In this document: one piece after another, positions 24,675-60,235 of the stretch
How positions within the stretch are numbered: the first letter of the stretch is position 1
Layout: each line of letters opens with the position of its first letter
DNA from: Blattabacterium sp. (Blatta orientalis) str. Tarazona
GTDB taxonomy: Bacteria > Bacteroidota > Bacteroidia > Flavobacteriales > Blattabacteriaceae
Direction: 5' to 3'
DNA length: 64,000 bases
Assembly (NCBI RefSeq): GCF_000334405.1
Contig: NC_020195.1
Location: 62,001-126,000, forward strand
Program-made: the position numbers and the translations under genes
Notes under the pieces: generated by a model
Database searches by the model: none
Told to the model about the DNA's origin: nothing
The model's input: the letters and a program-made list of their open reading frames with translations, nothing else

Positions 24675-25073
24675 TTCATAAGATTTTAATCCAAAACCGA
24701 AAATAGTTCCCTGACAAACAGAAGATAAAAATGATTTTTTTCTGAAAAATTCCCTTGAATGAATATTGGAAATATGAATTTCTATGACGGGAGAAGGAAT
24801 AGATTTGATAGCATCAGCAATTCCCAAAGAAGTATGAGTATAAGCTCCCGCATTGAGAACGATTCCATCTGATTGAAACCCTATAGCATGTAAAATATCT
24901 ATAATTTTTCCTTCATGATTACTTTGATAATAAGTAATGTCCATCTCAGAAAAAATTTTTTTCTTTTTTAGTTTTTTTAAATAATCTACAAAATTTTCTG
25001 TTCCGTATAATTCTGGCTCTCTTTTTCCCAAAAGATTTAAATTAGGACCATTGATTATGCTTATTTTTTTCAT
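24648..25073 (-). CDS. aroQ: 3-dehydroquinate dehydratase, type II
   Basis: Third step of the shikimate pathway. The type II signature INGPNLNLLGKREPELYG holds the active-site Tyr at residue 23 and Arg; NAGAYTHTS and EIHISNIHSREFFR supply the other active-site residues. At 141 residues it is complete. It indicates retained synthesis of aromatic precursors. It overlaps engB tail to tail. Confidence 0.96.
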   Translation of the reverse strand: MKKISIINGPNLNLLGKREPELYGTENFVDYLKKLKKKKIFSEMDITYYQSNHEGKIIDILHAIGFQSDGIVLNAGAYTHTSLGIADAIKSIPSPVIEIHISNIHSREFFRKKSFLSSVCQGTIFGFGLKSYELGVFSFSL

Positions 25074-25112
25074 GGAATAAATTTTTTACAGTATGATTTA
25101 CTTCTTGTTTAC

Positions 25113-25817
25113 TTAAAAACACCAGCTTCCTATTTTAAGATTTTTATTAGTAAATCCTCCAAAATGAATTCTTTCCAGTTTGATTACTTGATAGGTGAGT
25201 TTTTTAAAAATACGTCTAATTACTCTATTCCATCCTATATGTAATCCAATTTTTACTATATTTTTTGCATATTTATGAAGAAAATCTATTTTTACTCTTC
25301 CTTCATTCAGATATATTTTTCCTTGTCTGATTTTATCTAAATCTTGATAATGGATGGTTTTATTCAATACAACTAGATATATTTTTTGGACTTTATATTT
25401 TGGATGAGTTAATTTTTCAGTTATAAGTCCATCGTTAGTAATAAGTAAAACTCCTGTAGTTAAACGATCTAATCTACCAACAGGATAAATTCTATAATTC
25501 TGGAAATTTGGAATCAAATTCATGACAGTTTTTCTGTTAAAAGGATCACGCGTAGAAGTAATATATCCTTTAGGTTTATTAAGAAGTATATATATTTTTT
25601 TCTTGTTTTTTATTCTACTTCCATGAAATTTGATGACATCATTTTTATGGACAACAGTGCCAAATTTGGTAACGATTTTTCCATTAACCTCTATGAGACC
25701 TGATTGAATTAATTTATCTGCTTCTCTTCTAGAAGTAATCCCAGCATTAGACAAGTAATGATTTAATCTGATAAACTTCTCTTCTTCTATCTTTTTTTGA
25801 TTCATTTTCATTATCAT
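25113..25817 (-). CDS. rluB: rRNA pseudouridine synthase, RsuA/RluB family
   Basis: Modifies uridine in rRNA, most likely 23S rRNA. An S4 domain (RLNHYLSNAGITSRREADK) precedes the catalytic domain with the Asp motif GRLDRLTTGVLLIT. The C-terminal segment VIRRIFKKL is typical of the family. Length is 234 residues. Assignment to RluB rather than RsuA or RluE is inferred from the family in related bacteria. It is co-directional with the upstream mevalonate kinase gene, 3 bases apart. Confidence 0.88.
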   Translation of the reverse strand: MIMKMNQKKIEEEKFIRLNHYLSNAGITSRREADKLIQSGLIEVNGKIVTKFGTVVHKNDVIKFHGSRIKNKKKIYILLNKPKGYITSTRDPFNRKTVMNLIPNFQNYRIYPVGRLDRLTTGVLLITNDGLITEKLTHPKYKVQKIYLVVLNKTIHYQDLDKIRQGKIYLNEGRVKIDFLHKYAKNIVKIGLHIGWNRVIRRIFKKLTYQVIKLERIHFGGFTNKNLKIGSWCF

Positions 25818-38801: not shown

Positions 38802-38927
38802 TCTATTTCCATGATTTTACGGTAAAAATATAAAAATTATAGATGAAATAAACCTTTGATATTATTGCTATTCGTTCACTTATAAAATTTTATAATTATC
38901 TTTGTTCAGTGTACTTAAAGAAATTAA

Positions 38928-40156
38928 ATGAATGCACTTGGAAAAATTTTAGATTATTCAAAATCTTATAAAGATCATTTTTTAATTTTTTTAAAAAAAA
39001 TTTTCTCATATAAATATGGAAAAATGAAAACGCTTGGAATCTTATGCCTTTTTATCATTTTTCTTTTTTTATTCGTAATATCTTTAGGTATTTAGATGAA
39101 TATTTCATGAGAGGAGCTAAAAATCAATTGGGAAAATTTTTTCCTGTGATAGAAGAACCTTTAAATTCTACAAAAATTAGAAATATTTTTAATGCTGAAA
39201 ATAAAATGCAAAAACGTTTTGAAAATATATCTGAATGTCAAAGAAAACTTTCCGCTCGTGTTGTTGTGTTTTTTTTTGTAAATCGTAAAAAAGAATTAGT
39301 TTCTCCTGTTAGTGAATTTCTAGGTTCTCTCACAATGATTTTGATTGTTTGGGATGGAGGAAAACTTTTTTTATAAAAAAAATGAATGGCACCAGAAATC
39401 CTTTTTTCTTTTGTTGGATTAATTTTTCAAATTATTAATCCAGCAAAAAATTTAGTTAATTCCATATCGAATATTCAAAATCGAATATTCAAAAATGAAA
39501 AGCTACAGCAGAACGTATTGTGGAAATCTAAATGTCTCTCAAAAGAACAAACACTATCTAAATCCATTTTATAAATTTGACATATAATAAATTAGTTCTA
39601 ATTAAAAATTTAACTTTCTCTTTAAAAAAGGAAAAACTATAACTTTATTAGGAAAATCTGGAAGTGGAAAATCTACTATAGATAATTTACTGGCTAATTT
39701 TTATGAGGTGTACTCAGGAGAAATAACTATTGACGGAATCAATATTAAATATTTAAAAACTAGAGAGTACAGAAGATTATTGGGAATGGTGACGCAAGAA
39801 CCTGTTCTTTTTTTAATGATTCTGTTTTCAATAATATTGCTTTATGTCTAGAAAGAGTTTCTATAAAATCCGTTATTGGATATAATAGAAACAAAGTTGT
39901 CTATGGGACAAATACAAAGAATTAGCATATCTATAACGGTGTTGAAAAATTCTCCAATCTTTAAATAAAATGTTTAAAACATGTTTAAAAACAGGACTTC
40001 ATTAGTTATTTTCCATCGATTTTCTTCTACTATTAGACAAAATGCAGATCATCTTATTGTATTAGAGAAAGGAAAAATAATAGAACAAGGAAAATACAAA
40101 GTTTTAATTTCAAAAAAGAAACTTACAGAAATTTACTTTCTTTACAAAGTTTTTAA
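38928..40156 (+). pseudogene. Eroded MsbA-type ABC exporter
   Basis: The 1.36 kb between secDF and terC holds the debris of one ABC exporter (permease plus ATPase). The start (MNALGKILDYSKSYKDHF) runs 57 codons to a TAG. Later pieces in other frames are SARVVVFF, the late permease segments SPVSEFLGSLTMILIVWDGG and IINPAKNLVNSISNIQ, the ATPase with Walker A GKSGSGKST, GMVTQEPVLF, an altered signature LSMGQIQRISI, and the tail [10 protein letters not shown] ... [11 protein letters not shown] ending SLQSF-stop at 40156. Walker B and roughly 200 permease residues are deleted. Intact relatives are about 600 residues, so one third is gone. Confidence 0.88.
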
Positions 40157-58385: not shown

Positions 58386-58828
58386 CGTTACAGGATAAAG
58401 AAGAAAGAATCAAAAAAGAATTTTCTTTTCTAAGAAATTGGGAAGAAAAATATGAATATCTTATAGATTTAGGAATGAAATTACCAAAAAAATCTGATAA
58501 ATTTAGATCTGAAGATAAATTGATTCATGGATGCCAATCTAAAGTTTGGTTAGATTCTAAATTAAGAGGAAAACTGGTTTTTTTTGATGCAGATAGTGAT
58601 GCCTTATTACCTAAAGGAATGGCGGCTCTTATGATTTTTGTTTATTCTGGACATTCTCCTTTTGAAATTATTTCTTCGAAGGCGAATTTTATTTCTGAAA
58701 TAGGATTTCAAACATTTTTATCTCCGATTCGAGCTAATGGGATACTTTTATTTTTAAAAAAAATAAAGTTTTATGCCATTGCTTTTAATGTAAAATTATC
58801 TGTTAGATTGAATGGTAAAATTTCGTAA
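58382..58828 (+). CDS. sufE: Sulfur-transfer protein SufE
   Basis: Accepts sulfur from SufS for iron-sulfur cluster assembly. I start at ATG 58382, which overlaps the metE stop in ATGA; an upstream in-frame ATG at 58364 is less likely. Cys51 in IHGCQSKVW is the acceptor. KLPKKSDKFRSEDKLI and FLSPIRANGI are typical. It has 148 residues. The stop codon falls in the loop of a strong terminator. SufS and SufBCD are not in the window. Confidence 0.94.
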   Translation: MTLQDKEERIKKEFSFLRNWEEKYEYLIDLGMKLPKKSDKFRSEDKLIHGCQSKVWLDSKLRGKLVFFDADSDALLPKGMAALMIFVYSGHSPFEIISSKANFISEIGFQTFLSPIRANGILLFLKKIKFYAIAFNVKLSVRLNGKIS

Positions 58829-58846
58829 AAATTTTACCATTCTTTT
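58810..58846 (+). terminator. Strong intrinsic terminator after sufE
   Basis: Perfect 14-bp stem (58810-58823 GAATGGTAAAATTT with 58829-58842 AAATTTTACCATTC), 5-base loop CGTAA and then TTTT. The loop contains the sufE stop codon TAA, so the last sufE codons are part of the stem. It closes the metE-sufE unit. Confidence 0.85.
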
Positions 58847-58872: not shown

Positions 58873-60192
58873 ATGAGGTTTCATACTATTAATCCTGTTG
58901 ATAATCATATACTAAATACTTATTCTTTTATAGAGGATAAGGATATTATGGATAAGCTCTCTCTAGCTCAAAAAGCTTATGAAAAATGGAAAAATTTTTC
59001 CTATTCTTCTAGGATAGGATATATAATGAAATTATCTTCTTCCATGCAAGATCTCATAGACATTATAGCCTATTTAATAACTCAAGAAATGGGAAAACCT
59101 ATAACTCAATCACGTTTGGAAGTAGAAAAGTGTATCAAATTATGCGAGTATTATTCTAGTTTAGAAGAATCGATCTTTTTTCAGGATATATCTACTGAAT
59201 ATGAAAAATCTTATATTCGATTTGAATCTATAGGAGCTACATTAGGAATTATGCCTTGGAATTATCCTATTTGGCAAACCATAAGATATGCAATTCCTAA
59301 TATTTTATTAGGGAATGTAATAGTACTTAAACCTGCTACTAATACGGCTGGATGTTCTCTTCTTTTAGAAAAAATATTTATTGAATCTGGTTTTCCAAGA
59401 GGACTTTTTCAAGTTTTTTTAATAGATATACCTAAAATAAAATCTGTTATAGCTCATCCAATTATACAAGGTGTTTCTTTTACAGGAAGTCATTTAGCTG
59501 GAAGTCATATAGGATATTTATCTGGAAAATATATTAAAAAATCTGTTTTAGAATTAGGTGGAAATGATGCTTTTGTAGTTATGAGAGATGTAGAGAATCT
59601 AAAAAAAACGGCTAAATTAGCTACGGAATCTAGATTGAATAATACAGGACAAACATGTATTTCCGCTAAAAGATTTATAGTAGATAATTTTATTGTAGAT
59701 GATTTTATAGATCTGGTTATTCAAGAAATGAAACAGTATCATAGGGGAGATGTACATGAGGAATCTACTAAAATAGGGTATATTTCTCGTGTAGACTTAT
59801 CTGAAAAATTATATAAACAATATAAAGATATTATTTCAAATGGAGGAAAAGTATGTTTACAAACTACAAGAGATGAAAATTTTTTTTCTCCTTGTTTATT
59901 GAAAATGGAAGATAAGAATTTTTCTTACAATCAAGAGGAAATATTTGGACCAATAGGAATCGTTTATACTTTTTCTAATGAGGAAGAAATTCCTTCTATG
60001 GTAAATGCAACCTGTTATGGTCTAGGGGCTTCTCTTTGGACTAAAGACTTAAAAAAAGCGGAATTTTTATCCAAGAAAATAAATACAGGTATGGTTTTTA
60101 TCAATGAAATAGTAAAATCTGATCCTCGTTTTCCTTTTGGAGGAATAAAAAAAATCTGGATACGGAAGAGAACTATCTGTTCTATCTCTTAA
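58873..60192 (+). CDS. Aldehyde dehydrogenase (succinate-semialdehyde type), C-terminus frameshifted
   Basis: NAD(P)-dependent aldehyde oxidation, closest by eye to succinate-semialdehyde dehydrogenases of Bacteroidota. PWNYP with Asn130, the general base Glu227 in ELGGND and the nucleophile Cys262 in GQTC are intact, as is EEIFGPI. After FPFGGIKK the frame breaks at eight A (60147-60154). The present frame ends IWIRKRTICSIS; the alternative reads SGYGRELSVLSLKEFSN and ends at 60232, the usual C-terminus. With seven A the protein would be 452 residues. The catalytic centre is complete, but the missing tail takes part in oligomer contacts in this family. Confidence 0.85.
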   Translation: MRFHTINPVDNHILNTYSFIEDKDIMDKLSLAQKAYEKWKNFSYSSRIGYIMKLSSSMQDLIDIIAYLITQEMGKPITQSRLEVEKCIKLCEYYSSLEESIFFQDISTEYEKSYIRFESIGATLGIMPWNYPIWQTIRYAIPNILLGNVIVLKPATNTAGCSLLLEKIFIESGFPRGLFQVFLIDIPKIKSVIAHPIIQGVSFTGSHLAGSHIGYLSGKYIKKSVLELGGNDAFVVMRDVENLKKTAKLATESRLNNTGQTCISAKRFIVDNFIVDDFIDLVIQEMKQYHRGDVHEESTKIGYISRVDLSEKLYKQYKDIISNGGKVCLQTTRDENFFSPCLLKMEDKNFSYNQEEIFGPIGIVYTFSNEEEIPSMVNATCYGLGASLWTKDLKKAEFLSKKINTGMVFINEIVKSDPRFPFGGIKKIWIRKRTICSIS

Positions 60193-60235
60193 AGAGTTTT
60201 CTAATTGTAAAACTATTATTATCAATAAATGATTC

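Follow-up and report, generated by a model that had tools for sequence, protein, structure and literature searches.

We favour, with a probability of about one half, the reading that a dispensable aldehyde dehydrogenase (ALDH) gene in the Blattabacterium symbiont of Blatta orientalis has recently been inactivated by homopolymer slippage at replication. An A7 run would have gained one A on this symbiont's terminal branch, so that 12 foreign residues and a stop codon take the place of the conserved C-terminus. Because the SGxGRE motif and the C-terminal strand are missing from the predicted product, the truncated enzyme is most likely inactive, which would place ALDH at the first step of decay. 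This reading takes the additional base to be real, the protein to be inactive and any rescue to be of no use, all of which we infer.

The gene lies in a stretch of 64,000 nucleotides, here called the window, of the Blattabacterium genome from Blatta orientalis (NC_020195.1; chromosome 634,449 bp, plasmid 3,735 bp, nine pseudogenes counted; PMC6039017 Table 1). The genome that contains the window is denoted G000; G067, G031 and similar handles denote congeners.

Reading frame, active site and C-terminus of ALDH

The features at the locus are as follows (window coordinates).

58810..58842, + strand: hairpin of 14 pairs with a loop of 5, then TTTTCTTTAT; between the sufE-like gene and ALDH
58873..60192, + strand: ALDH (SSADH-like) frame as written, 439 aa; from the sequence, the ORF list and profile searches
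60147..60154, + strand: A8 run; A7 in the sister G067, AAAGAAA in G031
60155..60232, + strand: conserved ALDH C-terminus and stop, one frame away; from translation and congener comparison

The ORF matches the Pfam Aldedh profile (PF00171) with 334.7 bits (gathering cut-off 23) and covers positions 9-440 of 461, whereas the intact G031 ortholog (452 aa) fills the profile to 461/461. NF006915, the equivalog model for NADP-dependent succinate-semialdehyde dehydrogenase, gives 336.7 bits, below its curated cut-off of 730. The first-pass annotation had claimed that the catalytic Asn, Glu and Cys are all present, and they are, in motifs starting at 128 (Asn in PWNYP), 226 (Glu in LELGGN) and 259 (Cys in GQTC). 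With A8 at 60147-60154 the frame closes at 60192, and the final 12 residues, IWIRKRTICSIS, are out of frame and foreign to the family. When compared with PF00171, the encoded protein does not contain the complete C-terminus with the SGxGRE motif. Translation one frame away recovers it behind the A8 run, where a SGYGRELS C-terminus had been proposed: SGYGRELSVLSLKEFSNCKTIIINK is encoded at 60155-60229 and is followed by a stop codon at 60230-60232, where the first-pass annotation had placed the end of the feature. The further claim that seven A's would yield 452 residues, the family norm, agrees with the length of the intact G031 ortholog. The nearest solved homolog, 4it9, has the same SGYGREL tail.

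The hairpin at 58810-58842 with its T-rich tail is terminator-like and may serve the upstream gene; the search by ALDH found 1 hairpin versus 0.7 expected in shuffles. No Rfam element was found at the ALDH locus, and a search of the plasmid collection for ALDH returned one distant ALDH only.

The frameshift across the genus

The ALDH gene was found in 45 of 49 genus genomes (35 of the 37 first searched and 10 of the 12 added later). The frame is kept in all 44 other gene-bearing genomes, which have at most seven A's at the site; G000 is the sole exception. By their longest A run at this position, the 45 copies divide into 21 with A7, 23 with A6 or shorter and one, that of G000, with A8. The ALDH tree joins G000 and G067 as sisters (support 97/88), and G031 is the next closest. 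At the site G067 reads ATAAAAAAATCTGGATACGG, which is A7 and in frame. Since the 44 others are in frame and the sister has exactly A7, the transition is, on this comparison, a single +1 event private to G000 or else an over-call by one base.

The tails of G000 and G067 are identical in 25/25 residues (0 nonsynonymous and 2 synonymous differences), so that the frameshift can be regarded as beyond chance. Compared with G031, the tail has one amino-acid change, I to L, which G000 and G067 have in common. Because G067 has A7 and shares this change, the frameshift postdates the G000/G067 split.

Dispensability and selection

Four of the 49 genomes (G026, G034, G063 and G064) gave no ALDH match. In G026 and G034 the gap between rpoN and the sufE-like gene is now about 70 and 190 bp, which indicates that ALDH was cleanly deleted. 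With the gene lacking from four genomes, two of which were checked as clean deletions, ALDH looks dispensable in some lineages. The frameshift, its absence from gene-bearing relatives, the A7 of the sister and whole-gene loss in congeners are firm at the level of the genomes compared. A disabling lesion private to one lineage, in a gene that its relatives can dispense with, is the pattern of a pseudogene. A backup copy in G000 was ruled out, as ALDH has one match in its own genome.

On the G000 branch the ALDH body has 9 nonsynonymous and 3 synonymous changes; for the other genes of the window the figures are about 485 and 541 (Fisher p = 0.08, not significant). G000 also carries I123T, at a position where the 44 others all have I or L. 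Both may be taken as weak hints of relaxed selection.

The A8 run and the out-of-frame tail

An A8 run by itself is not unusual in this genome. The window has 63 sense-strand coding A8 runs and another 30 that reach A9 or more, and almost all of these runs lie in open genes. The 255 kb of G000 that were surveyed (see below) contain 250 coding sense A8 runs and 137 longer ones, and their host genes are open apart from the broken ones named here; with A and T counts summed, coding A/T runs of 8 or more number roughly 500.

Since the split from G067, a wholly unconstrained 25-codon tail would be expected to gain on the G000 branch between 0.7 amino-acid changes (at the ALDH synonymous rate) and 2.7 (at the window average). 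None is seen (P = 0.52 at the ALDH rate to 0.07 at the window average), and tail constraint after the shift is indistinguishable from neutrality. The branch is so short that zero changes are expected even if selection is absent, and the intact tail is therefore no sign of restoration; it would be equally expected from a recent, genuine and unrescued indel. The first-pass annotation had argued that a one-base difference in the mRNA or the read would produce just this picture, a full active site with a tail that is intact but out of frame. Its read-error half still stands as a candidate; its mRNA half is unsupported, given a tail P of 0.07-0.52 and a frameshifted state that is found in 1 of 45 genomes and is thus not conserved. 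The G000 case shows how weakly an intact tail in another frame argues for recoding when the branch is short.

Other broken genes

The window and 191 kb of neighbouring stretches of G000 (255 kb) were compared with G031. Most raw matches of the frameshift scan were judged, after inspection of the longest ones, to be shadow frames or changes upstream of the start codon. Four further broken genes were found.

Window about 38850-40153, + strand: decayed ABC transporter pseudogene with many stops and frame changes; 611 aa and intact in G031
Window 25045-25817, - strand: RluB-like pseudouridine synthase; last 25 residues lost via T6 to T5 relative to G031
G000:C1:142402-142882 (L131): SNase-like pseudogene with at least two indels
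G000:C1:153660-154750 (L132): fatty-acid desaturase; near the start, a single A is inserted at each of two sites 17 bp apart

The SNase-like gene was matched in 7 of 49 congeners and, among these matches, is intact only in G031 and G067, with remnants in a few others. The desaturase was likewise matched in 7 of 49 Blattabacterium genomes, and some of the matches of these two genes are also broken. The RluB-like gene was found in 49/49 congeners; its tail, one frame away, is still 23/25 identical, and the lost part lies outside the matched Pfam domains. The RluB-like lesion is also a one-base homopolymer change, but a loss. Taken together, the broken genes look like ongoing erosion of dispensable functions.

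Discussion

The A8 call could be an over-call in sequencing or assembly, the true genome having A7 and an intact ALDH. We regard this as possible, though on balance doubtful. The site is one homopolymer base away from the A7 of the sister, and ALDH has no second disabling lesion besides the frameshift, which counts against decay. The 255 kb hold roughly 500 coding A/T runs of 8 or more, and a single over-called run among them is a plausible error rate that would not be surprising for reads that are weak at homopolymers. Conserved frame transitions mark programmed ones, whereas one-offs are mostly errors or indels, and one-off frameshifted genes with continuous homologs were deemed likely read errors in the same survey (PMC3711429). 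The transition in G000 is, from the genus comparison, such a one-off. However, elsewhere in the compared stretch long coding runs either keep the frame or belong to genes that resemble real losses, and the broken genes cluster in dispensable functions. Because the broken genes are mostly dispensable, a genuine ALDH indel seems likelier than a random read error. The RluB-like gene tempers this argument: being present in 49/49 genomes, it indicates that not all frameshifts strike genes that relatives have dropped.

The frame, as deduced from the codons, is restored only by removing one A or adding two. RNA polymerase might drop one A in some transcripts, so that A7 mRNA and a certain amount of full-length enzyme are made, a rescue that we consider unlikely. 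Tamas and co-workers reportedly described, in 2008, Buchnera and Blochmannia poly(A) frameshifts that are partly corrected by transcriptional slippage. For such endosymbiont genes with long poly(A) runs, 12-50% of transcripts are corrected (review PMC5009743; also PMC3017870). ALDH has a poly(A)-tract indel with continuous homology on both sides and a tail that is still perfectly conserved, but an intact tail is expected without selection. Nor is the frameshifted state kept across species, as it is in the long-lived Blochmannia cases; it occurs in one lineage only. For E. coli RNA polymerase, no one-base deletion was detected on the poly(A) runs examined, and runs under eight A's showed no slippage in either direction (PMC6260861), although the Blattabacterium polymerase may differ. 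That ALDH is kept functional by deletion slippage on only eight A's is, in our judgement, quite improbable. A reversible A7/A8 polymorphism in the symbiont population, akin to phase variation and caught by the assembly with A8 in the majority, would exploit a slippage-prone tract that is standard here (A7 in 21 of 45 genomes). We give it very little credence: the gene concerned is a metabolic one, the symbiont is clonal and inherited vertically, both mutS and mutL are matched in open frames, and A8 is found in no other genome. The open mutS and mutL frames also led us to reject lost mismatch repair as the cause. Programmed ribosomal frameshifting at A_AAA_AAA, a classic -1 slippery heptamer within the run, is scarcely credible. 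Frame arithmetic rules out the -1 event, which would enter an unrelated frame (NLDTEENYLFYLLKS...) and not the ALDH tail; a +1 shift is required, no known +1 signal was seen, and the arrangement is missing in 44/44 intact congeners.

If recent inactivation of ALDH is correct, the most that the case offers is a date for the loss of one gene in a cockroach symbiont. Were rescue to be true instead, poly(A) rescue would be known from a Bacteroidota endosymbiont as well, and on a shorter run than those reported to be efficient. G000 and G067 form a clean A7/A8 sister pair for testing slippage of the Blattabacterium RNA polymerase on poly(A).

Comparison with known systems

The window ALDH resembles its family (PF00171; 4it9) in the profile match over positions 9-440 and in the Asn, Glu and Cys. 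It differs in that the predicted product ends 21 Pfam positions early and so is without the SGYGRE motif, which 4it9 and all congeners have. With the poly(A) frameshifts of Buchnera and Blochmannia (Tamas et al. 2008; Wernegreen et al. 2010; PMC3017870) it shares an AT-rich insect endosymbiont as its setting, a single-base indel and a gene that is otherwise intact. Unlike these, it is confined to one lineage, the gene is dispensable in congeners and the case is known here from DNA alone; moreover, the run is only A8, whereas tracts of 9 or more are counted as long (PMC3017870). Pseudogenes that arise by homopolymer indels in endosymbionts represent initial events of gene erosion (PMC3017870). 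ALDH differs from these early pseudogenes in having no second lesion yet, so that its decay would be at the very start (or not real), and it is like them in that the change is of one base, appears to be recent and affects a gene that has been lost elsewhere in the genus.
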